From NCBI RefSeq assembly GCF_003987435.1, contig NZ_PIQG01000002.1:248001-312000 (forward strand): a DNA stretch of 64,000 nt, given 5' to 3'. The translations under genes were made by a program, and so were the position numbers. Positions 20,227 through 55,392 of the stretch are shown here, in pieces. The notes under the pieces were generated by a model. The model made no database searches. It was not told the DNA's origin and saw only the letters and a program-made list of their open reading frames with translations. Source of the DNA: Pseudidiomarina taiwanensis. Lineage in GTDB: Bacteria; Pseudomonadota; Gammaproteobacteria; Enterobacterales; Alteromonadaceae. How positions within the stretch are numbered: the stretch's first letter is position 1; the number at the start of each line of letters is the position of its first letter.

Positions 20227-22818
20227 TTACAATGTCGCTACCGCAGCAATCGCTACACCTGTTTGATACAGAATCTGGGTTGCATCGCGCCACAGGGTCC
20301 AGTTGTCTTTAAAGCTAGTATCAAGTGGCACCACTATGGTATCACCTGGCTCAAGCCGCTGTTGATTAGCGAAGCCAAACCACGAGCGGTTGCCGTCGAC
20401 CGCGACCGCACCATTTGCTTTCACCACAAATATGCGCTCTTCATCGGCTTTTTGGCGCAAACCTCCGGCTCTACGAATATAATCGGTTACTGTAAGTGCC
20501 CCGTCAAACACATGGGCACTTGCCAGTTGCACCTCGCCAATGACATTAACGGTCTCACGACGGCTAGGCACCACTAGCCGATCACCATCTTTTAATTGAA
20601 TGTCAGCATCTAAGCTACCGGTTAATATGTATGGCAGATCAATCACCAGTCGCCCAACTGGTTCAACTTCGATTAAGTCGTTTACCAGCTGGTTGAATTC
20701 AGTGTAACTAACTGTATTTACCGCATCCGTTATCATATTACTCGACACTTCACGGCGCAGGTCTTGCGCTAGTTGCTGCATCCGCTGTTGCTCGAGCTCT
20801 TTCAATTCTTCGCGAGTAAATACCGCCCCACGAGCAAAGGCATATTGGGTCAAGCCACCGGCTCGTTCAATCACGCTCGACAAGGTCTCACCTCGCCGAA
20901 CGGTGTAAGTTCCCGGGAAGCGCACTTCGCCTTCAAGGGTTACCCGCACATTTGCATCCCACTCTGGCGTGCGCAGTACGTTAATTACATCGCGACTTTG
21001 TAACTGCGGTGCACTTGTGCCATTGGGTTTAAAATCGAAGGTTTGGATAGTAATACTATCGGATGAAACGACTTCTCGGGTGATCTCACTGCGCGAGGTA
21101 AAAGCCGAATCTTTTAAACCACCCGCTGCTTGAATGATGTCATTAGCATCTATATTCTTAGCTAGCGGATACACGCCCGGCTTGTGCACATCACCACGCA
21201 CTGTCACCCAGCCTGATTGGCTATCACTATTTTGCTGCGCCAATAACTGGTTAAAAATAGGGGCAAGTAACCGTAGCCGTGAATATTCAGCATACTGAGC
21301 TAATTCGTCTTCTGAAATTGTCAAACCTAATTGTCGATATATGCCTACTACCAAGCTTGAATTTGTCACACTTCTGCTTTTAGGAGACGCTTCTGAGGCG
21401 TCTCTCTCAGATGAGATTTCGGCTCGATAGTTAAGTCGCTCTTCAGTTTTCTTTTCAAACCGAGAGAACAGCACTAGAGTATCGCCTTGCTCGAGTGTGA
21501 GGTTGTTCTCGCTATCACCTGAAAGAGCTTTTTGCAGGTTAATTTGGTAAATCGACTCGATGGTGTTATTACGTCCACCGCGCACAATCAAGGCATAATT
21601 TAAGTCAGTATTAGGCAGTAAATCGGCATCGGCACTGGTGATAATATCCGTTACCTTTAAGTCGTTTTGATACTGGTAGTAGCCTGTCCGGCTTGCCGCA
21701 CCAATCAAGAGCACGCCATCACTAATATCCTCTGTTACCGCCTGCACACTAATCTTGTCGCCATTCAGCGCTTGTACCGTGTTTACTTGCGCCGAGGTGA
21801 TGGTTTTTGCCCGGCGGCGATCATCACGAATACGCTCAACTAAAATTTGTGCATTAAATGCTGAGGGTAACTTCCCCCCAGCGAGTGCGATGGCATCGGC
21901 GATGGTCTCGTTGCCTTTTAACTCATAATATCCCGGACGAAGTACTTCTCCTTTAACTTGCACTAAACTTTTGCGTGCTGGGATAAATACCACGTCACCA
22001 TCACGCAGTACTTGGTCACCATCGGCTTTGCCCGCAATTAAAAAGTCATACAGGTCAAGTTCAGAAATGGTCTTACCCGCCCGCTTAATTTGCACATTGC
22101 GAAGTGATGCGATATCAGTCACGCCACCACTTAAAAATAAGACTTGCATAGCAGTAGTAAGTGCATTTACTCGATAAGCACCAGGCTTATACGATTCGCC
22201 CGTTACGTAGATAAACATACTACGCAGCTCGCCCATACTCACGCTGGCTTCAAGGCCAATGTTTCGCTCGCTTACTTCGTTACGGATCAGTTGTTGTGCT
22301 TCAGCAAAAGTCAACCCTACCACATTTAATGGCGGTAAATCGTCGACCACAATTTGCCCTTCACGGTTTATAATTGCTTCAACTTGTTTCGACTCTTTGC
22401 CAAAGTAGTTAATAACCAATGAATCACCCGGCGCTAACTGGTAATCATTCGGTACTGGACCAAAACTTGTGGTATCGAAACTTTGCGGTTGCCCGGCAAA
22501 AAGTTCATAACCGAAGGGTTTAATTCGGTCGTCTTCTTTGGATGTAGCTTGCCCTTGGCTATATGGGCTCATTTCATTCATGCTAGGGCGTTCACTTACA
22601 AGGGGCTGCCCCTCTTGAGGTGCAAGTGCATCACTTTGGCTTGACCCTTGTAACAACGACAAATCAAAACCATATTGGCGAGCCAATAGCTCTTGCTGTG
22701 CTCTCGGTAGTTTTTTGAACTGTTCGATTTGCGCCGGCGAGACTTGCGCCAAAGCTACACTTTGCAGCAGCAATGCTGTGCTCAGAAAAAATAAGGTACG
22801 AAGCGCCATTTTTTTCAT
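20227..22818 (-). CDS. SLBB-domain polysaccharide export protein (Wza-like)
   Basis: An 863-residue exported protein: signal peptide (MALRTLFFLSTALLLQSVAL), a Gln-rich N-terminus, a polysaccharide-export domain (NDYQLAPGDSLVINYFGKES) and several SLBB repeats (for example GEVLRPGYYELKGNETIADA, GEVRFPGTYTVRRGETLSSV). Such proteins form the periplasmic/outer-membrane exit channel for capsule or EPS. It is much longer than E. coli Wza (about 380) but typical of marine gammaproteobacteria. One palindrome copy lies in frame at 22601-22614, encoding EGQPL between the signal peptide and the export domain. First gene after the ops-bearing leader. Confidence 0.88.
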   Translation of the reverse strand: MKKMALRTLFFLSTALLLQSVALAQVSPAQIEQFKKLPRAQQELLARQYGFDLSLLQGSSQSDALAPQEGQPLVSERPSMNEMSPYSQGQATSKEDDRIKPFGYELFAGQPQSFDTTSFGPVPNDYQLAPGDSLVINYFGKESKQVEAIINREGQIVVDDLPPLNVVGLTFAEAQQLIRNEVSERNIGLEASVSMGELRSMFIYVTGESYKPGAYRVNALTTAMQVLFLSGGVTDIASLRNVQIKRAGKTISELDLYDFLIAGKADGDQVLRDGDVVFIPARKSLVQVKGEVLRPGYYELKGNETIADAIALAGGKLPSAFNAQILVERIRDDRRRAKTITSAQVNTVQALNGDKISVQAVTEDISDGVLLIGAASRTGYYQYQNDLKVTDIITSADADLLPNTDLNYALIVRGGRNNTIESIYQINLQKALSGDSENNLTLEQGDTLVLFSRFEKKTEERLNYRAEISSERDASEASPKSRSVTNSSLVVGIYRQLGLTISEDELAQYAEYSRLRLLAPIFNQLLAQQNSDSQSGWVTVRGDVHKPGVYPLAKNIDANDIIQAAGGLKDSAFTSRSEITREVVSSDSITIQTFDFKPNGTSAPQLQSRDVINVLRTPEWDANVRVTLEGEVRFPGTYTVRRGETLSSVIERAGGLTQYAFARGAVFTREELKELEQQRMQQLAQDLRREVSSNMITDAVNTVSYTEFNQLVNDLIEVEPVGRLVIDLPYILTGSLDADIQLKDGDRLVVPSRRETVNVIGEVQLASAHVFDGALTVTDYIRRAGGLRQKADEERIFVVKANGAVAVDGNRSWFGFANQQRLEPGDTIVVPLDTSFKDNWTLWRDATQILYQTGVAIAAVATL
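22601..22614. repeat. GGGGCTGCCCC palindrome in the SLBB export gene
   Basis: Single in-frame copy reading EGQPL in the linker before the export domain. It is the leftmost copy in the window and the only one inside the polysaccharide operon. Confidence 0.85.
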
Positions 22819-22852
22819 TTTCTGATCCTATCGTTATACACTTAAATTAGAC

Positions 22853-22863
22853 ACGCTACCGCC
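22853..22863 (-). promoter_or_regulatory. ops element (RfaH recruitment site)
   Basis: The minus strand reads GGCGGTAGCGT, identical to the ops core that pauses RNA polymerase and loads RfaH. It is preceded by GG and followed by GTCTAA, as in JUMPstart leaders. It lies 35 bases upstream of the SLBB export gene, and a small stem (CGGGT/ACCCG, 22867-22882) sits just before it. rfaH itself is at 27.9 kb. The operon below it is over 22 kb long, the kind RfaH serves. Confidence 0.88.
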
Positions 22864-22921
22864 CTCGGGTTGCGGCACCCGAAAGCCGATGAAAATTTTA
22901 CTTTTAACTATTGCTACGACG

Positions 22922-22927
22922 ATTATA
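22922..22927 (-). promoter_or_regulatory. Possible -10 box of the polysaccharide operon
   Basis: The minus strand reads TATAAT immediately downstream of the yjbH stop, about 105 bases before the export-gene start and upstream of the ops element. No good -35 hexamer is seen at the right distance, so this is a weak call. Read-through from the yjb operon is the alternative. Confidence 0.3.
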
Positions 22928-22928
22928 G

Positions 22929-26764: not shown

Positions 26765-26832
26765 TGAATAACTACTAATCCGTGTATTTATAATTATGAC
26801 TTTATTATAACAAAGTCACTTTTAAAAAACCA

Positions 26833-29984: not shown

Positions 29985-30000
29985 GAGGGGCAGCCCGTCC
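29985..30000. repeat. Degenerate palindrome at the pgi start codon
   Basis: Plus strand GAGGGGCAGCCCGTCC, one change from the core, directly abutting the pgi ATG (29982-29984) and separating it from AAGGA. Confidence 0.7.
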
Positions 30001-30073: not shown

Positions 30074-30138
30074 GAGGGGCAGCCCCTTTCGCGATTGATA
30101 AGGGGCAGCCCCTCCCCAAAAGAGGGGCAGCCCCTCTT
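30074..30138. repeat. Three palindrome copies between pgi and the OMP gene
   Basis: Copies at 30074-30087, 30101-30114 and 30121-30138, all with central A on the plus strand. They fill most of the spacer between the OMP gene stop and the start of pgi. The last has fully symmetrical arms (AGAGGGGCAGCCCCTCTT). Confidence 0.92.
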
Positions 30139-30911: not shown

Positions 30912-30953
30912 AGGAGGGGCAGCCCCTCTGATCAGAAGGGGCTGCCCCTCCTC
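30912..30953. repeat. Inverted palindrome pair upstream of the RAYT gene
   Basis: Two cores in opposite orientation (30913-30929 central A; 30936-30951 central T) around a few bases near GATC. They can pair with each other as a long hairpin or fold singly. They lie 56 bases before the RAYT start. Confidence 0.93.
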
Positions 30954-30997: not shown

Positions 30998-31006
30998 AAG
31001 GAGGTG
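30998..31006 (+). promoter_or_regulatory. Strong ribosome binding site of the RAYT gene
   Basis: AAGGAGGTG lies five bases (from the end of AGGAGG) before ATG 31010 and decides this start over the in-frame GTG at 31004, which overlaps the site itself. Confidence 0.85.
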
Positions 31007-31009
31007 CAC

Positions 31010-31720
31010 ATGCCAAATTTGAAGCGAGCCGAATATCCAGGGATTGGAATGCATATCACGCAACGTGGTAACAATCGCCAAAAGATTTTTTTTGAACATG
31101 CCGATGGCGTCATGCTTGCAGGGCTTATAAAACGATTTGCGGAAAAGTATCAGATACTTATCCATGCATGGTGCTTCATGCCCAATCACATCCACCTATT
31201 CGTGACACCGCTTGAACCGAAGACAATTGGTTTATTCATGCAATGTGCGACGGCGACGTACAGCCGCTATTTCAACCAAAAATATCAACGCACCGGCAGC
31301 CTATATGAAAAGCGCTACTTCTCCTCACTGGTGGACGAGCGCGAATACGTCATCATGCTCTATCGCTATATCGAGCTAAACCCCGTAACTGCGGGCCTCG
31401 TAAAACGACCCGACCAATGGTTCTGGAGCTCATATCAACACAATGCCAGGGGGCGTCCATCGACGATTCTTACCCCACACTCGTGCTTTTTACTGCTCGG
31501 TGAAGACGAAGATGAGCGCCGTCGTATCTACCGCAAACTCGTTGCTGAGTCGGACTTTCGCAGCGCTGAATGGGATGCGGGACGAACAATGATCCGCACT
31601 GCACAGCGGCTTCAGTCGGTATACGGTTCGGATAAATTCCGCGAGGTGATGCAGGTGAAAACTGGGGCTAAGCTGAGAGCTTCTGACTCTGAAGGTGATG
31701 AGAAAGTGACGACAAAATAA
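31010..31720 (+). CDS. REP-associated tyrosine transposase (RAYT, Y1 transposase)
   Basis: A 236-residue single-domain Y1 transposase. The HUH motif is His60-Ile-His62 in CFMPNHIHLFV. The catalytic tyrosine lies in LYRYIELNPVTAGLV (Tyr118 or Tyr120), with WFWSSYQHNA after it. RAYTs cut single-stranded REP hairpins and are thought to spread them. This is the only plus-strand gene between 1 and 44.5 kb. It is bracketed by two palindrome copies upstream and three downstream, the first starting directly after its stop codon. The same palindrome recurs through the neighbouring T2SS genes. That this protein acts on the palindrome is inferred from position and family. Confidence 0.92.
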   Translation: MPNLKRAEYPGIGMHITQRGNNRQKIFFEHADGVMLAGLIKRFAEKYQILIHAWCFMPNHIHLFVTPLEPKTIGLFMQCATATYSRYFNQKYQRTGSLYEKRYFSSLVDEREYVIMLYRYIELNPVTAGLVKRPDQWFWSSYQHNARGRPSTILTPHSCFLLLGEDEDERRRIYRKLVAESDFRSAEWDAGRTMIRTAQRLQSVYGSDKFREVMQVKTGAKLRASDSEGDEKVTTK

Positions 31721-31780
31721 AAGGGGCAGCCCCTCTGTTGAGGAGGGGCAGCCCCTTGTCGAGATGAGGGGCTGCCCCTC
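31721..31780. repeat. Three palindrome copies downstream of the RAYT gene
   Basis: Copies at 31721-31736 and 31741-31756 (central A) and 31766-31780 (central T). They fill the whole 60-base space between the RAYT stop and the mscS stop and could fold as terminators for both convergent genes. Confidence 0.93.
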
Positions 31781-32637: not shown

Positions 32638-33426
32638 TCACCAGGAAAACGCGAAGCGATAGCGGCCATTAACGTCGGGTTGGCCCACCAACGGCAATAA
32701 ATCTGTGACTTCTCTTGGCGCCTCAAGTGTCGGTAAGAAACTCCCGCTTACCTGACCTCGCGGTAGCTGCCTAGCTCCAGTTAGTTGCGCATCTAATTGT
32801 AGTCCAAGAATATTATTGTTAGGAATCTTTAAATCGATTCCCTGTTGCGCATTGCACGACGCCTGCGCTTGATAATCACCTAACTCACGCCAATTCTGAT
32901 TTAGATTAATCACCATATTGCTTGTCAGCAAATCCGCCTGGAGCCTGTCACACCATCGCGGGTTATTAAGATCGCTCAGGGCATAATCTTTAATTGCCAG
33001 CTGCCACTGCCCGTCGACCTGTACCAGCATGGGAGCATTTACCGACTTTAAGGTGGAGTCAATGTCGCCCTGCAGCTGCCCTTTGAGGAGGGGCAGCCCC
33101 TCCCCTTCGAGAACTAGCTGAAGGTCACCATAAAACACATTAAGTGCTTGAGGAATATCGATTTCTAGCGAAATTCGGCCTCGCACAAGATCAGAGGGGC
33201 TGCCCCTCCAGTTTACATTGCGTAATTCGAGTGTAGCCCCCGTCGGCAAAGGGATAGCGACGGTCCCAGCCTGCCCCGACCAAATTGTGCCGGAGACATT
33301 GCTTACAAGGGGCTGCCCCCCCTGATTTGGTGCAAACCAATGCTGTCCCCACACTAACAATTGAGCGGGGGCAAACGCGACTAATCCGATAAGATAAAGC
33401 GGAATTAACCACAACAACCAACGCAT
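32638..33426 (-). CDS. gspN: T2SS protein GspN
   Basis: A 262-residue inner-membrane-anchored protein beginning MRWLLWLIPLYLIGLVAFAP, with a periplasmic domain containing VSGTIWSGQAGTVAIPLPTG and ending GRYRFAFSW, typical of GspN. GspN is an accessory T2SS component with an unclear role. Three palindromes are read in three different frames: GGQPL (33307-33322), WRGSPSD (33193-33208) and EGLPL (33087-33103). Last gene of the gspC-N operon; its ATG abuts the gspM stop. Confidence 0.88.
   Translation of the reverse strand: MRWLLWLIPLYLIGLVAFAPAQLLVWGQHWFAPNQGGQPLVSNVSGTIWSGQAGTVAIPLPTGATLELRNVNWRGSPSDLVRGRISLEIDIPQALNVFYGDLQLVLEGEGLPLLKGQLQGDIDSTLKSVNAPMLVQVDGQWQLAIKDYALSDLNNPRWCDRLQADLLTSNMVINLNQNWRELGDYQAQASCNAQQGIDLKIPNNNILGLQLDAQLTGARQLPRGQVSGSFLPTLEAPREVTDLLPLVGQPDVNGRYRFAFSW
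33087..33103. repeat. Palindrome in gspN (third copy)
   Basis: GGAGGGGCAGCCCCTCC, fully symmetrical apart from the central base; read as EGLPL in GspN. Confidence 0.9.
33193..33208. repeat. Palindrome in gspN (second copy)
   Basis: AGAGGGGCTGCCCCTC, read as RGSPS in GspN, a different frame from the other two copies of this gene. Confidence 0.9.
33307..33322. repeat. Palindrome in gspN (first copy)
   Basis: AAGGGGCTGCCCCCCC, read as GGQPL near residue 37 of GspN; right arm slightly altered. Confidence 0.85.
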
Positions 33427-33941
33427 CAGCCACGCACCTGCAATTTACGCACACGCACTTGCCCCGGGATGCCCGCAGTTGCAATATCGAGTGCTACAAC
33501 GGTTACCCCGTGGCGCGCTTGGAGGTCAGCTAACATGTTGATTAACTGGTTAAAATCTACCTCATTCATTGCCACTAGCAAATCATCACCCTGCGGTTGA
33601 ATGCGCGTGATCTCAATTGCTGCGCTACTTGCAGCCTGCGTCACCCGCTGGCTTAAACTGCCCGAGCTAGCCGCCGCTGGTTGCCGCCCACCCTGCTGTT
33701 GCAGTGCCTGCAATTGACCGGCTTGCTCTCGCACCAATTGTAACAGCTGCTCTTGCGCTGTAATTTGCTCCGCGCGCTCCTCAATGCCTACCGCAATGGG
33801 TCGCCAAAAAATGAGGTATAAAAGCGCGATCACAACCACGCCCGCTAAACTCGAAACCAGCACGCGCTCGCGCTGCTCCAGTTTGCTCCAATGTGGTTCA
33901 ATCGCACTATTGATGCGGGTTTTAAGCATTTCGATCGCCAT
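33426..33941 (-). CDS. gspM: T2SS inner-membrane protein GspM
   Basis: About 171 residues from the ATG at 33941 (MAIEMLKTRI), one base after the gspL stop. The longer open frame from 33986 adds a non-homologous leader inside gspL. A single membrane helix (VLVSSLAGVVVIALLYLIFW) is followed by a coiled coil and a small ferredoxin-like domain. GspM forms the inner-membrane platform with GspC, GspF and GspL. No palindrome is present. Confidence 0.9.
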   Translation of the reverse strand: MAIEMLKTRINSAIEPHWSKLEQRERVLVSSLAGVVVIALLYLIFWRPIAVGIEERAEQITAQEQLLQLVREQAGQLQALQQQGGRQPAAASSGSLSQRVTQAASSAAIEITRIQPQGDDLLVAMNEVDFNQLINMLADLQARHGVTVVALDIATAGIPGQVRVRKLQVRG

Positions 33942-33942
33942 G

Positions 33943-35259
33943 TTACTGCCCTCCCGCGCGCACGATGAGTGTGCCACTGACGCCATTATCTTGGTTCGTT
34001 ACAGGTCCTTGCTCAACTGAATAAGCCGTTGTTTGCTCGGCTTTATTTCGAAAATTTTCAATACTAGAGAAACTTGAAGCGCGCGCCTGAAGACGTAACT
34101 GCCCGTTTTCGAATCGTAAAAGTTCGAGTTGTAAATCAGGTGCTTGGGCGAAAGCGGTTTGTAAATCGGCGAGCATTTTCAAAGCCTGACTCTCACCTCC
34201 AACTGCGTCCCCACCAAGTTCATCGATTTTGCGCTGCAACTGCACCCGCACATTCACAATCGGACTATTACCCGGCACCGCAGTGCGGTAGGTTTGTTCG
34301 ATTGCCTGACTGATTTTTTCTCTCTGCTGGCCGAGTTCAATGTAAGTGAGTACTTGCCCTGCGTATGCAAACAAAAGTGCCAGACCAGCCGCAATCGCAG
34401 TCGGTTTCCAAGGTAACAGGCTGGTTCCATTTTTACGCTTTTTCGCGACCCGATACCCTTGTTGCAACAAGTTGATAGCGCCATTTCGATGCGTGCTGTT
34501 CGCGACCACACTCAGTGGCACTTCGATATCTGCGGCATGCCACTGCAACGAGAGGGGCTGCCCCTCTTGCTCTTCTGTATTTATGTTGTGTAGGCCGTAG
34601 GTGATGACGCGCACTGAGGGGAGTGACGGGAGGGGCAGCCCCTTGTCAGCCTTTTGCTCACCGTCAGCTTTATCGTCTACGAAATTCGGTAAAAACGCAG
34701 CCAAACCCAAGCTATTGACGATCGACAAATCTAGGCAGAATCCGCTGTGCTGACCGGTTCGCACAATGATACTGGACCCCAGCTCCATCAAGCTGACTTC
34801 ATTGGTTGCGGCCGGGGCTGGCAGCATATAAAAATCCGGATACCAGCAATCGGTGCTAATTCCTGCATCCGCGAGCCATGCCTGATATCGGCGCATCGCT
34901 TCGTGCGATATTGTCGCAACAGGCAACGGCTGCTCCGCACCTTTTGCTTTGAAGTTCGCCGGCCAAGCAAAATGCTGCGATTCAATTTCTGCTGCTAATT
35001 CATCCTCTAACGCATTCGGGATCAGCTGCGCCCACATCCGTTGTGAACTTGGTGGCAGCACTGCGGCAAGCATCCGCACGGACTCCCCTGCGACAAATAC
35101 TGTCGTCTCGCGCTGTGCTGATTTATCAGTTAACTGCGAGAGTGCTGCTGCATTTGGCAGCTCTCCTGACGCAATCAGTTCGCGCTGCGCAGGACTCCAA
35201 ACAAGCCAATGGACCTTTCCATCTGGGCTTGAAGGCAGTCTAATAAACAGCTGTTCCAT
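33943..35259 (-). CDS. gspL: T2SS inner-membrane protein GspL
   Basis: A 438-residue bitopic protein: actin-like cytoplasmic domain (MEQLFIRLPSSPDGKVHWLV start), a membrane helix near IAAGLALLFAYAGQVLTYIE and a periplasmic ferredoxin-like domain. GspL recruits the GspE ATPase to the platform through its cytoplasmic part. Two palindromes lie in one loop of the cytoplasmic domain, giving ADKGLPLPSLPS and EEQEGQPLSLQW, an insertion that should be visible against homologues. The gene starts 2 bases after gspK. Confidence 0.92.
   Translation of the reverse strand: MEQLFIRLPSSPDGKVHWLVWSPAQRELIASGELPNAAALSQLTDKSAQRETTVFVAGESVRMLAAVLPPSSQRMWAQLIPNALEDELAAEIESQHFAWPANFKAKGAEQPLPVATISHEAMRRYQAWLADAGISTDCWYPDFYMLPAPAATNEVSLMELGSSIIVRTGQHSGFCLDLSIVNSLGLAAFLPNFVDDKADGEQKADKGLPLPSLPSVRVITYGLHNINTEEQEGQPLSLQWHAADIEVPLSVVANSTHRNGAINLLQQGYRVAKKRKNGTSLLPWKPTAIAAGLALLFAYAGQVLTYIELGQQREKISQAIEQTYRTAVPGNSPIVNVRVQLQRKIDELGGDAVGGESQALKMLADLQTAFAQAPDLQLELLRFENGQLRLQARASSFSSIENFRNKAEQTTAYSVEQGPVTNQDNGVSGTLIVRAGGQ
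34550..34569. repeat. Palindrome in gspL (second copy)
   Basis: GAGAGGGGCTGCCCCTCTT with long symmetrical arms; read as EGQPL. Confidence 0.9.
34630..34643. repeat. Palindrome in gspL (first copy)
   Basis: GAGGGGCAGCCCCT, read as KGLPL in the same loop of GspL as the following copy, about 60 bases away. Confidence 0.88.
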
Positions 35260-35260
35260 A

Positions 35261-36337
35261 TTAATCTCCTAAACTTCGGTACAGCACACGAGTTTGTTCG
35301 GGCGTAATTTCGACAACCGAACGGCCTCTAATGCGCAAATCTCCGACAGTTATTTCAGCTCTTAACTCAAAATACTCGCTTTTTACGGTTAAATCATCAA
35401 GTGCGCCGCCTAAACCTGCTAATGCAGCGCTGGTAGGGCGAGCTCCCCCGCCAAAATTAGCTTGAATTGGCTTTGCTGCAGCCTGAGTTAATATGCGATC
35501 TGTGCGCATTTGCTCCTCGCTTTCGAAGCCATTCATATCACGATTTTCAAGAAATCGCTTCGCGTCATCTAGTGACAGCGAACCGAGCGAAACAGCGTGC
35601 AAAAGAGGGGCAGCCCCTTCTGCTAAGGTATTCACATTAATCGCCATATTCGCATCATGTGGCCACGCACAAACATAGGGTTCAAGGGCGCGGTAAATCA
35701 GTGGCGTCACTCCTCGAACTAGACGTAACTCACTGACTTCACTCAAATATGTGTTAGCGGCTTGATGCGGAAACTGCTGCGATTCGTAGTCCGCATCCTC
35801 GGCACCGTAGGTCCCGCTTATACGCTCGTCCGGATCCAGCCAGTCGGCGAGCGAATCCACCACTGTGTCCGCGGCATAGGGGTCGATGCGATCATCAGCC
35901 GCCAGCAACAACATTCGCAGCTGTGCTTTGCGTCGAACTAACAACCCTTCGGTCGGATTATTCCCCGCATCGGTCTCTGGTACGCGCAAACTATTCAAGT
36001 TAAAACAAGCACGTAGGTCATGAATCGTCCCTTCAATTAAACCGCCAGGAACGGGCAGTGGTTGAGAGTTTTCAGAGCTAGCCGCCCATAATTGGCTGCG
36101 ATTGGCGACCATATCATTGTCATTTAGCTCGGACTGTAACAGCTCGCGCACGACCTCTTCCGCACTCACCGCATACCAATAAGCCTGCTCGCCAAGTTGC
36201 ATATTGGCCGTGCGCACCACACTCGGCTGCAACGCCTTGGTTAAGCTAAGCGCGACAACGGCGACTAGGGCAACGACGAACAACACCATAATGAGCGCGA
36301 CACCGCGCTGATTAAACAAACGAAGTGGTATATTCAT
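35261..36337 (-). CDS. gspK: T2SS minor pseudopilin GspK
   Basis: A 358-residue pseudopilin with RGVALIMVLFVVALVAVVAL, the N-terminal helix lacking Glu5 as is normal for GspK, and a large alpha-helical globular domain (ADTVVDSLADWLDPDERISG). GspK caps the pseudopilus tip with GspI and GspJ. One palindrome encodes AEGAAPLLH within the globular domain. The start overlaps the gspJ stop by one base. Confidence 0.93.
   Translation of the reverse strand: MNIPLRLFNQRGVALIMVLFVVALVAVVALSLTKALQPSVVRTANMQLGEQAYWYAVSAEEVVRELLQSELNDNDMVANRSQLWAASSENSQPLPVPGGLIEGTIHDLRACFNLNSLRVPETDAGNNPTEGLLVRRKAQLRMLLLAADDRIDPYAADTVVDSLADWLDPDERISGTYGAEDADYESQQFPHQAANTYLSEVSELRLVRGVTPLIYRALEPYVCAWPHDANMAINVNTLAEGAAPLLHAVSLGSLSLDDAKRFLENRDMNGFESEEQMRTDRILTQAAAKPIQANFGGGARPTSAALAGLGGALDDLTVKSEYFELRAEITVGDLRIRGRSVVEITPEQTRVLYRSLGD
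35604..35619. repeat. Palindrome in gspK
   Basis: AGAGGGGCAGCCCCTT, read as EGAAP in the GspK globular domain. Confidence 0.88.
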
Positions 36338-37044
36338 TAGCTTCCACCCTCCGTTTGAGGAGGGGCTGCCCCTCCTTGATTGGTGCCCGGATTATTCGGA
36401 TCAGGCCCAACCAAGATCGATTTTTCTTTTAATTCTCCGCCATTTATTAAAAACACGCGCTCAATTCGTCCCCAAGTTTCGGTCTCGAGCGTCAATTCAA
36501 TTGCATGCGGAAGCGCATTTGGGAAGTTCCACGACTCAACCCATGCACCTCCGCGTTGGCGCACTTGCGCGTCCGCATTTGGCTCAGGTTTAAGATAAAA
36601 ACGCATGCGCATTTCACTTACTTTATCTAATAAAATGCGTTCTTGTGGCTCGGCACTAAGGCTCACATCAGGAAAGTAAAAGTGCTGCCGAATCAATTGG
36701 TTGTCTCGTAGTGTGTAGATCACAGGCTGTAATTGACTGCGGGGCAACGCAGCGCCAGGGTTCAGCCAACCATTGCGAATAAACGCAATTTGCTCAACAT
36801 CTACAAACAGCAGCCGACCAGTCGGATTGGTTCGCTTCACCATCCCTCGAATATCCTGCTCCATGATCAGCATTGCTCGCTGAAGCTCTTGTAATTGTTG
36901 AAGTTTTTCAGATGATTGCTCTTTAGTTCTGATCATCTGTTGAACCGTGACTGAGCTTGCCACCCCCAGCAGCGCAAAAACGGCCACCGCTACGAGAATT
37001 TCAACCAGGGTAAAACCTGATGATTGGCGCGAACGAAAACTCAC
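36337..37044 (-). CDS. gspJ: T2SS minor pseudopilin GspJ
   Basis: A 235-residue prepilin with cleavage motif SSGFTLVEILVAVAVFALLG (Glu5 present) and the GspJ-type body (QLQELQRAMLIMEQDIRGMV, VFLINGG). It forms the pseudopilus tip complex with GspI and GspK. The C-terminal tail contains a palindrome giving QGGAAPPQ just before the stop, beyond the conserved body. It overlaps gspI by 4 bases. Confidence 0.93.
   Translation of the reverse strand: MSFRSRQSSGFTLVEILVAVAVFALLGVASSVTVQQMIRTKEQSSEKLQQLQELQRAMLIMEQDIRGMVKRTNPTGRLLFVDVEQIAFIRNGWLNPGAALPRSQLQPVIYTLRDNQLIRQHFYFPDVSLSAEPQERILLDKVSEMRMRFYLKPEPNADAQVRQRGGAWVESWNFPNALPHAIELTLETETWGRIERVFLINGGELKEKSILVGPDPNNPGTNQGGAAPPQTEGGS
36357..36376. 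repeat. Palindrome at the gspJ 3' end
   Basis: GAGGAGGGGCTGCCCCTCCT, one of the longest symmetrical copies; read as GGAAPP in the GspJ tail. Confidence 0.92.
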
Positions 37045-37421
37045 TGAGCGCCTCCCTCAGGGCCCATATAGCGGCTCAGTTCAAAGAGGACTTCGGCTTC
37101 TGTTCGGTCTGATTCTTCGCTTACCCGCACTGTGACAAAAAAGACATTTTCTGTCGCAGTTTCAACCACTTCTGAACGCCAACGCCATTCGATGTCACCG
37201 ATTGTTTCGAGGCCCGACGCACCATCTTGCGGAGGATAGCTCAAAGAAATCCGACTGATAGCGTTACTTGCGGCCATTCGCGCAAAGGTCTTTTGCTCCA
37301 TGTACCTGAGGCTGTCGACATGCTGGGTTGCGGCGGCAATGGCGGCGACTGCGATCAAGGCAAAAATCGCCATGGCCGCTAAAACTTCGATTAGAGTGAA
37401 GCCACTTGCGCGCTTATTCAT
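37041..37421 (-). CDS. gspI: T2SS minor pseudopilin GspI
   Basis: A 126-residue prepilin with ASGFTLIEVLAAMAIFALIA and the body AATQHVDSLRYMEQKTFARM and WRSEVV, normal GspI length. GspI nucleates the pseudopilus tip with GspJ. It overlaps gspH and gspJ by 4 bases each. It contains no palindrome, and with gspG and gspM is one of the few clean genes of the operon. Confidence 0.93.
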   Translation of the reverse strand: MNKRASGFTLIEVLAAMAIFALIAVAAIAAATQHVDSLRYMEQKTFARMAASNAISRISLSYPPQDGASGLETIGDIEWRWRSEVVETATENVFFVTVRVSEESDRTEAEVLFELSRYMGPEGGAQ

Positions 37422-38562: not shown

Positions 38563-38576
38563 AAACTCCTCCAATA

Positions 38577-39830
38577 CTACAAGCCGATGGCTTGGTTAAG
38601 CGCCATAATCGGCTGAATAATCGCTAAAATAATAAATAAAACTGCACCCGCCATGGTCACGATCAACAGCGGCTCAAACACTTTGAGTGCAATATTCATG
38701 GTTTGTTCGAAATCGCGGTCCTGATTATCTGCCGCGCGCCCGAGCATGTCCTCGAGTTCCCCGCTACGCTCGCCGGCGGCGATCATATGCAGCATCATTG
38801 GCGGGAACAATTTACTTTGAGCCAGAGCCGCTCGTAATGATGCACCTTCGCGAACGCGATCAGCGGCTTCTTTCAAGGCAATCTGCATAGCGCGATTACT
38901 GATAATGCGTCCGGTAATGGTTAGGCCCTCGAGTAGCGGCACGGCCGATGCGGTGAGAATGCTTAAGGTGCGGCTGAAGCGAGAGGTATTGACGCCTCGA
39001 ATCACTTTTCCGACCAATGGCAAACGCAATAGCCAGCCGTCATAACGGTCGCGAAACGTCGGACGTCGCAACGCGAATTTCAATCCAACGTAAGCACTCA
39101 CTAGCGCCAGCAAGATATACAACCACGCTGCTTGTAAAAATCCAGAAATCGAAAGTAAGACAGTGGTTGTGGTTGGCAAGCTGGCATCAAGCTGAACAAA
39201 CTGCTCGACGATACCCGGCACCACTGACACCAGCAAAAACACGATAACGGCGACGGCGACCATGGTTAAGATCGCTGGATACGCCAATGCCTGCATCAGC
39301 TGTCCACGCAACTTATTGCGCTGCTCGGTATAGTCCGCCAAACGCTCAAGCACTTCATCTAAATGCCCGGAACGTTCACCTGCCGCCACCATCGAGGTGA
39401 AAAGTTTATCAAAAACATAAGGATACTCGGCCATCGATTCAGCCAAGGAGTAGCCCTCGACGACTTTTGAGCGCACGGCCATCACCAAGCCTTGTAAGCG
39501 CGGCTTCTCGGTTTGTTCAGCCACCGCCTGCAACACCTGTTCGAGGGGCAGCCCCCCACCAACTAAGCTCGCCATTTGCCGACTGATCAGCGCAAGGTCA
39601 CCTGAGCTAATACGGGCAGCCCTTCTGCGCAAGAGGGGCTGCCCCTTTTTCAAGAGGGGCAGCCCCTCTTTTTTTTGTATGCGATTACCCGTTTCAGCCT
39701 CTTCAACCGAAATCGGGATCAATGATTTTTCGCGCAGTTGCTGACGCACTTGACGTTCAGTGTCTGCCTCTAAAATACCGGATTTCTTGCGACCCTTTGC
39801 GTCAAGTGCTTGATATGCGTACGCCGCCAT
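38577..39830 (-). CDS. gspF: T2SS inner-membrane platform protein GspF
   Basis: A 417-residue GspF: N-terminus MAAYAYQALDAKGRKKSGIL, two GspF domains (SLVGGGLPLEQVLQAVAEQT and ASAVPLLEGLTITGRIISNR) and three membrane helices. It couples GspE to pseudopilus growth. Between the N-terminal strand and the first GspF domain is an insertion, KKEGLPLLKKGQPLLRRRAA, made of two palindromes plus a degraded third. The GGGLPLEQ at 39544-39558 also matches the palindrome core at DNA level but belongs to a motif conserved in the family. Confidence 0.94.
   Translation of the reverse strand: MAAYAYQALDAKGRKKSGILEADTERQVRQQLREKSLIPISVEEAETGNRIQKKEGLPLLKKGQPLLRRRAARISSGDLALISRQMASLVGGGLPLEQVLQAVAEQTEKPRLQGLVMAVRSKVVEGYSLAESMAEYPYVFDKLFTSMVAAGERSGHLDEVLERLADYTEQRNKLRGQLMQALAYPAILTMVAVAVIVFLLVSVVPGIVEQFVQLDASLPTTTTVLLSISGFLQAAWLYILLALVSAYVGLKFALRRPTFRDRYDGWLLRLPLVGKVIRGVNTSRFSRTLSILTASAVPLLEGLTITGRIISNRAMQIALKEAADRVREGASLRAALAQSKLFPPMMLHMIAAGERSGELEDMLGRAADNQDRDFEQTMNIALKVFEPLLIVTMAGAVLFIILAIIQPIMALNQAIGL
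39612..39670. repeat. Palindrome cluster in gspF
   Basis: Two exact cores (39632-39647 central T; 39652-39670 central A, AAGAGGGGCAGCCCCTCTT) and a degenerate neighbour ACGGGCAGCCCTT at 39612-39624. The second is followed on the plus strand by a run of T, so it resembles an antisense terminator. Confidence 0.9.
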
Positions 39831-39832
39831 TC

Positions 39833-41404
39833 TTATTCCTCGCGGGTCACACGAAGCACTTCTTCGAGCGTGGTCACGCCGACGGCGACTTTGGCAAGAC
39901 CGTCATCGCGGATACTCGGGGAATACTTGCGGATATACTTCTCAATCGCCTGTTCGCCGTGGCCATTATGGATAAAGTCGCGGACGGTCTCATCAACCAC
40001 CAGCAACTCATGGATCCCAGTTCGGCCTCGATAGCCTGAACCATTACAGTGTTCGCATCCACGTGCTTGATAAAGCTGGACATTTTCACGAACTCGGCGT
40101 GGTAAGTGGGCGAAATATTTAAGCTCGTCGGCGCTTGCTTCATAGGGCTCGCGACAGTCTTCACAGAGCGTTCGAACCAGCCGCTGAGCTAGAACTGCCA
40201 ACAAAGATGACGACAGTAAAAACGGTTCGACACCCATATCTTCCAAGCGCGTGATCGCACCCGAGGCGGTGTTGGTGTGCAAGGTCGATAAGACCAAATG
40301 GCCGGTTAATGAGGCCTGCACACCGATTTGCGCGGTTTCAACATCGCGGATTTCACCGACCATGACCACGTCCGGATCTTGTCGTAAAATAGCTCGCAAC
40401 CCTCGCGCAAAGGTCATATCCACCTTCGGATTTACCTGGGTTTGGCCGATGCCTTCGATGTTATATTCGATCGGATCTTCGACGGTCAGAATATTACGGT
40501 CACGCGAATTAATCTCCATCAAGCCCGCATAAAGAGTGGTCGATTTACCCGATCCGGTCGGCCCGGTCACCAAAATGATACCGTGCGGTTTTTTAATCAG
40601 TTGTGCGAAAACTTTGCGGTTCGCCTCGGTCATACCGAGCTGCTCGAGGTTCAAACGCGCGTTATTTTTGTCCAACAAACGCAAAACCACCCGCTCGCCG
40701 TGGCTTGAGGGCATGGTCGAGACCCGCACATCAACCGCACGACCGGCGATTAAGAGGCTGATGCGTCCGTCTTGTGGGACGCGTTTTTCGGCGATATCGA
40801 GCTGCGCCATAACCTTGATCCGCGATACCAGTAGCGAGCTAAGCTTGCGATTCGGCCGAATCACCTCACGCAACACGCCATCAATACGGAAACGTACCCG
40901 CAATTCTTTCTCAAAGGTTTCGATATGGATGTCCGAAGCGCCCTCTTTGATAGCCTCGGACAGCATGGCATTAATCAATTTAATAATCGGCGCGTCGTCT
41001 TCACTTTCGAGCAAGTCTTCCGTTTGCGGCAATTCATCGGCCAATGTCGTTAAGTCTGCTGAGCCAATATCTTCCATCAGCTGTTTCGCCTCAGACGAGT
41101 CGCGCTGATAGGCCGCGGTCAAGATCGCTTCGAACGCTTCTGGCTCATGTTGCTGTACGCGAAATGGAGCATCGAGGATGCGCCGAACTTCTAATAAAGC
41201 TTGCGGTGATGGGACACCCCGAGTGTGCACGATAAAGAGGGGCTGCCCCTCTTTTGCTAGGGGCTGCCCCCCCTCTGAGGTAGGGGCTGCCCCTCCCTCC
41301 TGCGGGGTCGCGACAACCACCCCAAAACGCTTCGCAAAGCCAAAGGGCAAGCGGCGTGGACTGATTTCCGCTGCGACTTCAGCAACGTTAGTCATTGCCG
41401 CCAT
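39833..41404 (-). CDS. gspE: T2SS ATPase GspE
   Basis: The secretion ATPase, about 520 residues: Walker [16 protein letters not shown], Asp box ([19 protein letters not shown]), Walker [20 protein letters not shown] and a tetracysteine zinc site (CEDCREPY and CEHCNGSG). Starts at 41404 (MAAMTN) or 41395 (MTNVAEVA) are both possible and both overlap gspD. An open extension to 41482 consists of palindrome peptides and is unlikely to be translated. Three palindromes near residues 30-60 give [20 protein letters not shown], before the conserved body. Confidence 0.95.
41236..41296. repeat. Three palindromes in gspE
   Basis: Copies at 41236-41253, 41259-41275 and 41282-41296, all central T, about 23 bases apart. 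They are read as EGQPL, EGGQPL and GGAAP in the N-terminal part of GspE. Confidence 0.93.
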
Positions 41405-43508
41405 CCTCCGATTTTTGGGTAGGGGCTGCCCCTCTTTTTGAAGGGGCTGCCCCTCCTTTGTTATCCCGCAGGTAATCCTCAAACCCCGGCGGCAAAGTCA
41501 ACTCACCATCCCACTCCGGCACCACCGGTTGCTCGGTGAATGGCATGAGTTCGATGCCATCTTCGTTGGCACGAATTTGCTCGGCGCGGATAAAGTTGTA
41601 TTTGCGCGAGCTAACTTCCATTGCGCCAGCCGAATCACGCAAAATGGTCGGCCGGATAAAGACCATCAAATTACGCTTTTGTTTAGTTGTTGAAGTCGAG
41701 GTAAAGAGCTGTCCTAACAACGGAATATCGCCCAATAACGGCACCTTCGAGACGCTCTCTTGCACGTCTTCATCAATCAAACCGCCAAGCACGATGGTCT
41801 CGCCATCTTCGGCCATGACTGTGGTTTTCAATTCACGCTTGTTGATGGTGATATCCACCGCTGTTGCGCCGCCGATACTAGAAACTTCTTGCTCGATAAA
41901 CAGTTGGACCGAATTACCCTCGTTGATTTGTGGGGTCACCCTCAGTTTGATCCCGATCTCTTGGCGATTCACGGTCTGGAATGGGTTACTATTGTTATCA
42001 CCCGCGGTCGAGCCCGTCAAAGTCGGCACTTCTTGACCGACCAGGAATGAGGCTTCTTCGTTGTCGACTGTGGTAATGCTTGGTGTGGCCAAGACGTTCG
42101 AATTGGTGGTGCTCGACACGGCTTGTAAAATTGCGCCCCAGTCGTTTTTCACCACACCGACCATCATGCCGTTGACGTTGCCCAGTACCTGCGCCAATAA
42201 ATCAGTATTGCCAGGCACATCAGGGGTGGTGGTGGTGACCACATTACCATCAACTATGGTGGTGGTCGTGGTGCCTGGCTGCTCGCGCGCTTGATAGGCG
42301 CCAGCAGCGACGGCCCCAATCGGAGCTTGGTTGCCGTTATTCCACTGCACTAAGCCGCCGTCTTCAGAAATCCACTGTAAGCCAAAATCAATACCATCAG
42401 AGTCGAACACTTCGACAATAATCGCTTCAACGTGCACTTGTGCACGGCGGATATCCAGCTGACGAATCACACTCTCAAGCGATGACAACATATCCGGCTG
42501 AGCGGTAATCACCACTGAGTTTGAGGCGGTATGTGCTGAAATCGAAATTTCTTTGCCACGCGAACCTGCACGCACCGCACCACCGGCTGTGGCGCCTGCC
42601 ATTTCGGCGGCAAGTGACTCGGAAACGCCCTGTAATACGTCAACGAGTTCATCAGCTTTGGCGTACTTCAAATAATAAACGCGGGTGTTGCCCTCGGCGC
42701 GTAAATCTTGGTCCAGCTGGCGAACTAACTTCATCACCCGCTCGCGCGCTTTCGGCTCACCGCTAATCACCACACTATTGGTGCGCTCATCGGCGACGAT
42801 TTTTGGGATCAATAGCGGCGGTGTGCCATCGTTGGTTTTTTCGTACAAAGCACTAGCGATGCGAACCACTTCTGCTGCTGAGGCATATTGTAGTTTCACC
42901 ACTTCGGCGTCTTGATTACCGGCTTTGTCGACGCGCTCGATGACTTCAACGAGGCGCTGCACGGTCTCGCTGCGACCGGTGAGCATGATCACGTTGGATG
43001 GGTCGTAAGAGACCACGTTGCCGCCACCACTTTGGTCGTTCAGCAAGCGTAGCAAAGGCGCCAGCTCGCGGACGTTAACGTTTTGCACTGGCACGACCCG
43101 CGTGACCAGGGTGTCACCGCCTAAATCGTTATTATCCACCACCGGGATCGCGCCGTTGCGCGCATCTTTATCGCGCATAACTTTGATGATGCCCGACTCC
43201 ATCTCGATAGTGGCAAATCCGTACACATCCAACACGTTCAAGAAAAATTGCCAGTACTGCTGTTCGTTCATGACATCGTAGCTGCGGACGTCGATTTTGC
43301 CGCGCACATCGGGGTCGATAATCATGGTTTTACCGAGGTTGCGACCCACCAGTTGGATAAATTCAGTGATATCGGTGTTCTTAAAACTGGCGGCATATTC
43401 AACTGGCTCGGCTTGATCCGTGCCACGCATTTGGGCCCAGCTCTGCAAGCTCAAACTGCTCAGACTAAGCCCCATTAATACGGCTATGGATAGGGTGGAT
43501 TTACGCAT
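41388..43508 (-). CDS. gspD: T2SS secretin GspD
   Basis: The outer-membrane secretin, about 706 residues from ATG 43508, which has AAGGA seven bases upstream. Signal peptide [21 protein letters not shown]-domains ([40 protein letters not shown]) and the secretin core ending [14 protein letters not shown]. The tail beyond FEDYLRDN consists of two palindromes, [14 protein letters not shown], and ends overlapping gspE. The longer frame from 43553 overlaps gspC and lacks a signal peptide start. Confidence 0.95.
41421..41457. repeat. Two palindromes at the gspD/gspE junction
   Basis: Copies at 41421-41435 and 41441-41457 (central T), encoding the GspD tail (GGAAP, RGAAP). They also stay open in the frame upstream of gspE. 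Confidence 0.93.
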
Positions 43509-43545
43509 ACTGGTTCCTTTTCCCATTCGCTTCACGGCGGTCATC

Positions 43546-44451
43546 TTATTCACTCGCCGGCACTTGGAGTTTTAAATCGATGTAGTCATCACCGCGCACG
43601 ACGGTAATGGTGACCTCATTCATGGTCTTCAAATCTTCTTGCATCTGCATGGCGGTCGAAATATCGCTCAAGTTGGCACCATTTACCGCTACCGCGATAT
43701 CCCCGCTTTCAAAGCCTGCCGCTTCAAATAACGCCGGGTCAGAGCCCGGGCTTAACCGATAGCCACGCAATCCGCCTGATTCCGCTACCGGCTGAATCTT
43801 AATGTACCGTAAGACCCCTTCGGCATCGAGCGAACGAACTCGCTGTACTTGTGAGGCAGATAAACGCTGCCGCTGGATTTGGGGGCGGTCAGCCGATGTC
43901 GCACGGGGGGGCTGCCCCTCATTGGTTTGGGCGGACGCGGCGGTGGGCGAAGTGCTTAGGCGCAAACCATCACTCAGCTCACCAATTCCTTCGAGTTCGA
44001 GGGTTTCGAGGCGGCCGTTGTTGTCGAGAATGACCCGATCGGCGAAGATTTCGACTAACTCGACTCGCGAACCAGGTAACTGTTCACCAATAATATACAC
44101 TTGCTGTGAGCCGCGCTGTTCAATGATAGCGGCGGAGCGGGCCGGGTCAGAACTCGCGGATACCCCAAGCAAACGCACATTCAAGGTAGTTTTCGGCGCA
44201 GAGGTGACACTGCCACTGCGTTGCTGGGCGGCGCCAAATAGATTTAAGCGAGTGACCCCGGCTAGGTTAAGCGGGGTGGACCGATTAACACTCGCAGCGG
44301 CAAGCGGCCCAGCCACAGGCTCTGGAGTTGGGGTGAGCACCTGCCAGGTCAGTTGCGCCAGCAACCACACCGCAAGTGCTGCGAAGATGGCAGTAACAGC
44401 CCACAAAGCACGGGACCCTAGTACTGCCAAATTTAATTTGGACATAGGCAT
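43546..44451 (-). CDS. gspC: T2SS inner-membrane protein GspC
   Basis: A 301-residue bitopic protein: membrane helix ALWAVTAIFAALAVWLLAQL, homology region (LNLFGAAQ to VILDNNGRLETLELEG) that contacts secretin N0, a linker and a C-terminal PDZ domain (YIKIQPVAESGGLRGYRLSP, AAGFESGDIAVAVNG). It connects the platform to GspD. The linker contains one palindrome giving TNEGQPPRAT. First gene of the gsp operon, divergent from hslO. ATG at 44445 is an alternative start. Confidence 0.93.
   Translation of the reverse strand: MPMSKLNLAVLGSRALWAVTAIFAALAVWLLAQLTWQVLTPTPEPVAGPLAAASVNRSTPLNLAGVTRLNLFGAAQQRSGSVTSAPKTTLNVRLLGVSASSDPARSAAIIEQRGSQQVYIIGEQLPGSRVELVEIFADRVILDNNGRLETLELEGIGELSDGLRLSTSPTAASAQTNEGQPPRATSADRPQIQRQRLSASQVQRVRSLDAEGVLRYIKIQPVAESGGLRGYRLSPGSDPALFEAAGFESGDIAVAVNGANLSDISTAMQMQEDLKTMNEVTITVVRGDDYIDLKLQVPASE
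43905..43920. repeat. Palindrome in gspC
   Basis: GGGGGGGCTGCCCCTC in the linker between the homology region and PDZ domain; read as EGQPP. The left arm is altered. Confidence 0.85.
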
Positions 44452-49168: not shown

Positions 49169-49204
49169 GGTCTTTCCTTCCGTACTTGCCCGTTCCTACA
49201 ACGC

Positions 49205-50467: not shown

Positions 50468-50521
50468 GTCAGTTCAATTCTATTGCTAGGTTTAATTTTG
50501 AGCGCGCTAGTATACCGCAGC

Positions 50522-51631: not shown

Positions 51632-51684
51632 CGCTTCACCTATATTCTTGGCTTATATTCTATTTGTTCGCCGCTAGCGCGTTA

Positions 51685-53476: not shown

Positions 53477-53550
53477 GATGAGGCCCTTGTTGCTGGTTAG
53501 GCTCTTATACTACCCCAGTGTTTAAGGTTCTGAAAGCGCTGGTTTTTGCT

Positions 53551-54684: not shown

Positions 54685-54706
54685 AACCAAACTCGTTTTT
54701 TTGATC

Positions 54707-54748
54707 AAAAACCCGCGGCGGAAGCATGGCCTCACGCACCGCGGGTTT
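54707..54748 (-). terminator. Terminator downstream of ndk
   Basis: AACCCGCGG pairs with CCGCGGGTT across a loop that can form an inner stem, followed by T residues on the minus strand. It lies 30 bases after the ndk stop and before rlmN. Confidence 0.7.
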
Positions 54749-54777
54749 GTTAACGCTAGTGCTATGCTGGTGTCAGC

Positions 54778-55209
54778 TTAGCGAGTACGTGGGCAGATTT
54801 CTTCGTCGCTGAAGAAATAAGCAATTTCACGTGCTGCTGAAGTTGCTGAGTCAGAGCCATGGACAGCATTTTCGTCGATGGTTTCAGCATAGTCTGCGCG
54901 TAAAGTTCCTGCCAGTGCATCAGCTGGGTTAGTGGCACCCATGATGTCACGGTGACGCTTCACTGCGTCTTCAGCTTCAAGTACTTGCACCATGATTGGG
55001 CCAGAAGTCATGAAGTCGACTAAAGCGCGGAAGAATGGGCGCTCGCTGTGCTCAGCGTAGAAGCCTTCTGCTTGCTCGGTGCTCAAGTGCATCATTTTTG
55101 CTGCAACAATACGGAAGCCCGCAGTTTCGAAACGGTTGTAGATACCACCGATCACATTTTTGCCAACCGCATCAGGTTTGATGATTGAAAGTGTACGTTC
55201 TAAAGCCAT
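54778..55209 (-). CDS. ndk: Nucleoside diphosphate kinase
   Basis: A 143-residue Ndk from ATG 55209 ([20 protein letters not shown]) with GGAGA upstream; the longer frame to 55284 is non-homologous. The phosphohistidine is in [16 protein letters not shown]. It equalises NTP and dNTP pools in the cytoplasm. The promoter region upstream contains two palindrome copies. Confidence 0.96.
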
Positions 55210-55296
55210 GAGAATCTCCGCTTTTAGCTTAGTCAAAATTAAGTCGCGCGGATTATACGCTACCCCCACCCAAAACAAAAGCACCCCCCAAAAACA

Positions 55297-55313
55297 AGAG
55301 GGGCAGCCCCTCC
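55297..55313. repeat. Palindrome upstream of ndk (left copy of pair)
   Basis: AGAGGGGCAGCCCCTCC, central A, in the ndk-msrA spacer. Confidence 0.9.
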
Positions 55314-55373
55314 ATTTTCGAGCACAGGAATGCGGGCTGCAGGTCCGTTTTTACACAAATGTAGGAAAAACTG

Positions 55374-55392
55374 AAGGAGGGGCTGCCCCTCA
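55374..55392. repeat. Palindrome upstream of msrA (right copy of pair)
   Basis: AAGGAGGGGCTGCCCCTCA, central T, so inverted to the copy 60 bases to its left. It is followed by seven T on the plus strand. The rest of the 307-base ndk-msrA spacer shows no gene. Confidence 0.9.

Follow-up and report, generated by a model that had tools for sequence, protein, structure and literature searches.

In the available portions of Nunvar 2010 (PMC2817692), repetitive extragenic palindromic (REP) sequences accumulated near rayt, the gene of the REP-associated tyrosine transposase (RAYT), in three marine gammaproteobacteria and in Thauera, over regions of up to 200 kb. The accessible text of Di Nocera 2013 (PMC3733652) reports REPs that lie within genes and are read in frame, and gives TIRYTs as RAYTs flanked by non-GTAG repeats. 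Twenty of 26 TIRYTs were placed in TnpA-Y1 subclass 2.1 by Quentin 2018 (PMC6006769), and the accessible parts of that paper describe an automatic and a manual search that found no REP-like sequences near subclass 2.1 genes. The mode of REP spread is called poorly understood in the available part of PMC8266576. Here we describe a family of short palindromes, GGGGCWGCCCC, found beside a RAYT gene in a 64-kb stretch of the Pseudidiomarina taiwanensis genome (hereafter the window; contig NZ_PIQG01000002.1, positions 248,001 to 312,000), for which a preliminary description had been made from the sequence alone. We consider these to be RAYT-linked, locally spreading and largely intragenic REP-like palindromes that are multiplied locally by the cognate RAYT, by insertion and perhaps also by overwriting, and we give this reading a probability of about 0.75.

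Palindrome clusters and the adjacent RAYT gene

Exact GGGGCWGCCCC occurs 31 times in the window, between positions 22602 and 55389, which is the number counted in the preliminary description; 100 dinucleotide-preserving shuffles gave a mean of 0.01 and a largest value of 1. Two degenerate copies had also been listed, of which just one was recovered at one mismatch. The stretches earlier said to be free of copies are indeed empty (1-22.6 kb, 43.9-55.3 kb and 55.4-64 kb), and 29 of the 31 copies lie within 15 kb of the RAYT gene, as nearly all had been said to. This gene had been taken for the sole Y1 transposase, and no other sequence of the genome matches PF01797 (Y1_Tnp) at E ≤ 0.001. The gene, the copies flanking it and the other copies outside genes are listed here, each single copy being assigned to the strand that bears A as the centre base.

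31004..31720, plus strand: RAYT, a Y1 (HUH) transposase gene of 238 amino acids (aa) with NHIH and YIELNP motifs (Pfam Y1_Tnp, 60.2 bits)
30916..30926, plus strand: copy 5' of RAYT, paired with that at 30938
30938..30948, minus strand: copy 5' of RAYT, paired with that at 30916
31723..31733, plus strand: copy immediately 3' of the RAYT stop codon
31745..31755, plus strand: copy 3' of RAYT
31768..31778, minus strand: copy 3' of RAYT
29987..29997, plus strand: degenerate copy, one mismatch
30076..30134: three copies (30076, 30102, 30124) in the spacer from pgi to an outer-membrane barrel gene
55300..55389: two copies (55300, 55379) in the spacer that separates ndk from a methionine sulfoxide reductase gene

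Across the whole 2.196-Mb genome (G000; other G numbers denote comparison genomes, L numbers loci, and C6 and C7 contigs) there are 61 exact copies, concentrated in a few clusters: 28 at C7:278-292k, in the window, 18 at C7:215-227k, eight at C6:121-128k, four at C6:78k, one pair and one single copy. Close neighbours are spaced 20-26 bp from start to start. Within 15 kb of the RAYT gene lie 29 of the 61 copies, compared to 0.83 expected. In a family sample of 147 genomes, the 146 others, four of them in the genus, carry 0-5 copies; within the genus 26 genomes were counted, of which G000 has 61, G153 40, G158 26, G157 19 and the other 22 have 0-2. The preliminary description had named an even density, genome-wide and in relatives without a RAYT, as the pattern that would point to another explanation, and we found the opposite: the copies are clustered and are nearly absent from most relatives.

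With the centre base read as A, a 5' head A-G-R-R is kept in seven genomes, with A at -9 in 78-94% of copies. The information at -9 is above that at the mirror position in five of the seven, the exceptions being G153 and G157. A GTAG head was rejected for the G000 family, A-G-R-R being present instead; within 10 nt of the 61 copies GTAG was found once (1/61) and GTGG three times (3/61). Arms said to change together beyond the core were not supported inside G000 either. At 6, 7 and 9 bases from the centre, 46, 27 and 27 of the 61 copies were complementary, compared to 45.9, 27.8 and 28.3 expected from base composition; positions 8 and 10-12 were slightly above expectation and position 13 was below it. 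Folded as single-stranded DNA, three of four tested copies form a hairpin of 8-9 bp, better than most shuffles. An Rfam scan of 20-57 kb of the window gave no match at the gathering threshold.

The RAYT of G000 has repeats on both sides, as in a REPtron, and so do its sister RAYTs (in G149 only the upstream repeat was seen). Against NCBIfam REP_Tyr_transpos the protein scored 69.1 bits (E 3.6e-19), under the cut-off of 80. Compared by eye with the table row for subclass 2.1, the protein agrees in YIELNP and in its 238 aa, but has NHIH as its HUH motif where the row gives NHVH or NH[YF]H, and YE where the row gives W[EQ] or FQ. Pfam, searched at E up to 5, gave no match to a C-terminal helix-turn-helix or Bac_DnaA_C-like domain in the five RAYTs examined, which may still have a diverged one, and a PDB sequence search with the RAYT returned no match at 0.001. 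An AlphaFold model of the RAYT alone had a mean pLDDT of 39.6 and was not used.

Core motifs and RAYT positions across the genus

A clear homologue of the RAYT is present in eleven genomes of the genus, G000 included; two other matches are a fragment and a weak match. Core motifs were read off the RAYT flanks (for G149, the upstream flank only) and proved to be GGGGCWGCCCC in G000, G157 and G158, AGGGCWGCCCT in G167, G148 and G149, GGGTGCAGACC in G131, G150 and G164, and AGGGGCAGGCACTTA in G026. For the ten RAYT-bearing genomes with genome-wide motif positions (G151 was left out), the 30 kb around the RAYT was the region densest in the genome's own flank motif in 10 of 10, over four core motifs, and in 8 of 10 when copies up to 1.7 kb from the RAYT start were omitted. 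Copy number tracks the cognate RAYT in most genomes, with G153 the exception.

The RAYT lies beside the type II secretion system (T2SS) genes in six genomes (G000, G131, G150, G164, G151 and G026) and at another place, locus B, in five (G158, G167, G148, G157 and G149); locus B is marked by a beta-CASP metallo-hydrolase gene in four genomes and by common neighbouring genes in G157. Exact copies of a genome's own motif are found in T2SS genes in five of the six genomes with the RAYT beside them, compared to none of the five with the RAYT elsewhere. Readings of such copies number 22 in G000, 9 in G131, 7 in G150, 9 in G164, 10 in G026 and 0 in G151, whose gspN holds a diverged copy; exact copies number 0 in each of G158, G167, G148, G157 and G149. 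Three genomes without a clear type-A RAYT (G070, G166 and G152) hold a related word 4-7 times within their T2SS genes, possibly as fossils. Protein trees of the RAYT and the T2SS agree on two clades, and the RAYT branch linking G000 to the T2SS-adjacent clade has a support of 84/98. Because the G000 RAYT groups with that clade, a recent move from locus B to the T2SS in the G000 lineage is unneeded and was rejected.

Both arms of the motif switch together at orthologous sites. GGGGCWGCCCC in G153 corresponds to AGGGCWGCCCT in G167 in six of eight aligned pairs, and GGGGCWGCCCC in G158 does so in five of five; cysQ counts in each of the two sets, one row aligned with a second locus was omitted and rows with an asymmetric outer pair in G153 or G158 were left uncounted. 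The cysQ palindrome occupies the same codons in G000, G153 and G158 (GGGGCWGCCCC) and in G167 (AGGGCAGCCCT), thus in both clades (L003:14147, L189:2793, L242:6862 and L234:8458). The site may be old and later rewritten, or it may have been targeted repeatedly.

A perfect DnaA-box consensus, TTATCCACA (given the same name in the available part of PMC6006769), stands within 5 nt of copies, mostly with a 1-nt gap (L189, L191, L198, L234, L242 and L003:14147). Such neighbours make up 9 of the 29 boxes genome-wide in G153, 7 of 34 in G167 and 1 of 22 in G000, with about 0.01-0.03 pairs expected, and could reflect a flank that was copied from cysQ, or else a signal linked to DnaA.

Other repeats and RAYTs were seen in passing. 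A second, distant RAYT type lies upstream of gspC, at the other end of the T2SS operon, in G131, G150, G166, G102, G154, G160 and G153 (L211, L213, L214, L216, L217, L219 and L220), and GTAG-headed repeats are present in T2SS genes of G160 (8), G102 (6) and G148 (2). A metagenome-assembled genome of Portnoybacteria carries the GGGGCWGCCCC 11-mer as close pairs on more than one contig, in part within open reading frames (ORFs; L013, L026, L034, L037, L047, L049, L060, L066 and L080). Among at least 114 loci of candidate phyla with the paired 11-mer, one (WWE3, L076) has a RAYT-like ORF within its 8 kb, with the pair 1.5 kb away.

Copies within genes

Inside the window 21 of the 31 copies are intragenic, 20 of them in the gspC-N operon and one in a polysaccharide export gene. 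Genome-wide, 41 of 61 were placed by hand count within ORFs judged real, of which eight lie by an ORF start (six for a TonB receptor and two for a cytochrome-like protein) and may precede the true start codon. In taking the family for ordinary repeats, the preliminary description overlooked these genic copies, some of which occupy resident codons without a change of length. The 20 operon copies yield 22 gene readings, as two are read in gspD and in a doubtful gspE start alike. Thirteen are in the G-Q/L-P frame, six read GAAP, three GSP and none is in the cysteine frame (GCP); the in-frame readings include EGQPL, EGLPL and GGAAP.

32638..44451, minus strand: operon of type II secretion genes from gspN to gspC (Pfam T2SS families), the chief site of intragenic copies
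22602..22612, minus strand: copy in the polysaccharide export gene, reads EGQPL
33090..33100, plus strand: copy in gspN, reads GEGLPLL; of 21 relatives, 9 have the same protein length and 10 others differ by no more than 1 aa
33196..33206, minus strand: copy in gspN, reads WRGSPS; length-neutral relative to 18 of 21 relatives
33309..33319, minus strand: copy in gspN, reads GGQPL, in a stretch of variable length
34554..34564, minus strand: copy in the gspL linker, reads EGQPL
34632..34642, plus strand: copy in the gspL linker, reads KGLPL
35607..35617, plus strand: copy in gspK, reads EGAAPLL; length-neutral relative to 17 of 21 relatives
36362..36372, minus strand: copy in the gspJ C-terminus, reads GGAAPP
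37585..37615: two copies in gspH (37585, 37605), read GGAAPPFEGLPQ; the stretch exceeds most relatives' length
37853..37887: two copies in gspH (37853, 37877), read TGGSPSDPSRGSP; an insert, 15 to 18 aa longer than in 21 of 21 relatives
39545..39555, plus strand: copy in gspF, reads VGGGLPLEQ; length-neutral relative to 21 of 21 relatives
39635..39666: two copies in the gspF linker (39635, 39656), read KKEGLPLLKKGQPLL
41239..41293: three copies in the gspE N-terminal linker (41239, 41260, 41283); an insert
41422..41453: two copies in the gspD C-terminus (41422, 41443), overlapped by the gspE ORF through its doubtful 5' extension
43908..43918, minus strand: copy in gspC, reads EGQPP

Lengths at the G000 sites were compared with orthologues from up to 21 relatives. 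The gspE linker is 11-19 aa longer in G000 than in 17 of 21 relatives, and the gspL sites are each 30-52 aa longer than in 18 of 21. Five of 21 comparable sites were length-neutral (gspF 39545, gspN 33196, gspK 35607, cysQ L003:14147 and a TonB-type receptor, L003:7213); two further sites were not comparable and gspN 33090 was left uncounted. Support is thin for two of the five, cysQ and the TonB-type receptor, the latter compared with one relative. At the gspF, gspN 33196 and gspK sites none of the relatives aligned there has a palindrome. In gspF the codons GGG GGG CTG CCC CTC take the place of A-A-(L/M)-P-I in most relatives, so that VGGGLPLEQ corresponds to V-x-A-A-(L/M)-P-I-E-Q. At those three sites and at gspN 33090, the resident T2SS sequence was nearer to the motif than phase-matched positions were (combined p 0.006, up to 16 relatives), a signal that came mainly from gspF, with gspK alone unremarkable. 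The gspN relatives are about 40% identical and form the weaker part of the evidence for length neutrality and resident matches.

Two further observations concern T2SS genes of the relatives. Longer palindromic inserts in G131, G150 and G164 differ mostly by multiples of 12 bp, with the frame kept (L164, L165 and L167). In a six-frame scan the gspE matches of G026 (C7:212873-214405, TAG) and G160 (C1:204558-205823, TGA) each had one internal stop.

Spread of the family and its likeness to known systems

We propose that the copies are short REP-like hairpins, with the 5' head A-G-R-R and the core GGGGCAGCCCC, that are cognate to the adjacent RAYT and would multiply mainly within its chromosomal neighbourhood. 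T2SS genes may have taken hits because the RAYT adjoins gspC-N, and the surviving genic copies would be those encoding tolerable peptides (G-Q/L-P, GAAP and GSP, never GCP). The HUH/Tyr nuclease of the RAYT may recognise the hairpin and head and yield single-stranded copies, which would be pasted either by insertion into linkers and spacers or by patching over partly matching resident sequence in a gene-conversion-like manner; repeated overwriting would hold one species to one motif. That overwriting contributes to the spread, with a single-stranded hairpin copy replacing 11-17 bp of partly matching DNA at constant length, even in conserved stretches such as that of gspF, and with the same process keeping a species on one motif, is put forward tentatively, as less likely than not.

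Several observations weigh against local multiplication by the RAYT. About half of the G000 copies (30/61) are in clusters without a nearby Y1 gene, and a 43-kb copy-free stretch separates the two largest clusters. G153 has 40 copies (L189-L192, L198, L199 and L250-L264) without a homologous RAYT, its only Y1 gene being a distant one elsewhere, and its copies are an orphan family. When the copies nearest the RAYT start are omitted as above, G158 (4 vs 6) and G026 (21 vs 22) fall behind another region. RAYT position and T2SS decoration follow one deep clade split, far fewer than 11 independent events; because the RAYT and T2SS trees show the same two clades, the contrast of 5/6 with 0/5 does not represent eleven independent cases. 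No copy was caught arriving among the relatives compared, none of which is very close. The 30 A and 31 T copies of G000 show no strand bias, unlike IS200/IS605 transposition, described as strand specific in the accessible literature. The longest common flanks in G000 reach just 13 bases beyond the core, so the evidence of copying there rests on the core, and the gspF copy folds no better than shuffles. The cysQ palindrome is present in three of the four orthologues compared, whereas G157 lacks it, as do a paralogue in G153 and a remote homologue in G026; because three of four carry it, the length-neutral reading of this site rests on G157 and the G153 paralogue. Local spreading by the RAYT, as first suggested in the preliminary description, is supported in part: the densest 30 kb in ten of ten genomes agrees with it, but the remote G000 clusters have no Y1 gene nearby and the G153 copies no homologous RAYT.

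The G000 cluster at C7:215-227k has genes in common with the G157 RAYT neighbourhood and with the stretch adjoining the G167 RAYT, and G131, G150 and G164 have secondary clusters at the metallo-hydrolase gene. Since this secondary locus is 34-64 kb from the RAYT in G000, G150 and G164, a neighbourhood effect on that scale and an earlier RAYT at the locus are both possible. Polysaccharide genes form an island within the copy-free stretch that separates these two clusters of G000. In the window, the polysaccharide island at 1-28428 has nucleotide-sugar, glycosyltransferase, export and YjbH genes, with a NusG-like gene at 27913-28428, and the protein encoded at 26879-27817 contains a long Glu-Pro repeat.

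In G153, two copies at a distance of 3.5 kb from each other have 32 flanking bases in common and therefore were copied. This argues against the palindromes being functional binding or hairpin sites for a DNA-binding protein, perhaps a domesticated RAYT, that were built by point mutation and selection so that the site follows the protein. Selected sites of this kind would suit the length-neutral copies, the resident near-matches, the coordinated arm switching, the spacing of paired copies by about two helical turns and the DnaA-box consensus that accompanies many G153 and G167 copies, mostly at a constant gap of 1 nt, but they sit poorly with the clear multi-residue inserts at gspH, gspL and gspE and with the 0-2 copies in 22 of 26 genus genomes, and the use of unrelated genes and several frames suits tolerance better than a common function. 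We regard them as an unlikely origin of the family. It is also improbable that the copies arose independently of the RAYT, by replication slippage, template switching or recombination between hairpins, with the RAYT merely resident in the cluster, given that each of ten homologous RAYTs lies within the densest region of its own flank motif and that core motifs partly follow RAYT clades; the secondary clusters without a Y1 gene, the orphan copies of G153, the 12-bp growth steps of copies in G131, G150 and G164 and 38-bp tandem units in G167 would suit such copying. A genome-wide word of the HIP1, uptake-signal or restriction-avoidance type, although exact, abundant and palindromic as the copies are, is ruled out by the distribution, with strong clustering, 61 copies in 2.2 Mb and near absence from most relatives.

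The genus is a natural system in which insertion can be set against gene-conversion-like patching of REPs, as it has RAYTs in two places, a local motif and indel-free copies on conserved codons. It also bears on how a selfish hairpin can remodel a secretion machine with the reading frames unbroken. Gene conversion for REPs is reportedly proposed in the title of an older review, which we know by title only. Our literature search, with subscription papers mostly outside it, found no description of the A-G-R-R head, concentration in one operon, length-neutral copies or arm switching at dispersed orthologous sites, and none joining REP, gene conversion and concerted.

Accumulation near RAYTs (PMC2817692) and in-frame intragenic REPs (PMC3733652) are already published in the accessible parts of these sources; less expected here are the missing GTAG head, the copies on resident codons without a change in length and the switching of both arms together. 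The family works like a REPtron in that, as in the available text of PMC2817692 and, for REPINs, PMC3116915, the RAYT is flanked by cognate palindromes and RAYT and REP change together. It falls outside the GTAG REPs on head and extragenic location: there is no GTAG/GTGG head, the centre is one base, and with 41 of 61 copies inside ORFs the repeats of G000 are not mainly extragenic. Like the Rickettsia palindromic elements and other intragenic REPs in the available portion of PMC3733652, the copies are short in-frame palindromes, part of them at putative linkers or protein ends. Those intragenic REPs, in contrast, end in CGTC or GTAG, the CGTC elements being without a known transposase, and that portion does not mention length-neutral copies or concentration in an operon beside the transposase.

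YIELNP, the length of 238 and flanking repeats unrelated to GTAG are features held in common with TIRYTs and TIRtrons (PMC3733652) and with subclass 2.1 (PMC6006769), and moderate abundance, with dimers and with clusters in some species, recalls the TIR families of PMC3733652, all as given in the accessible parts. The core GGGGCWGCCCC differs by inspection from the TIR motif GGGGWSAS, which the accessible text of PMC3733652 gives for some TIRs only. On these sequence features the RAYT likely belongs to subclass 2.1/TIRYT. Unlike subclass 2.1 genes in the available part of PMC6006769, the RAYTs described here have dispersed hairpins with an A-G-R-R head, locally enriched and, in G000, mostly intragenic, so that the family offers a candidate substrate for RAYTs resembling subclass 2.1.

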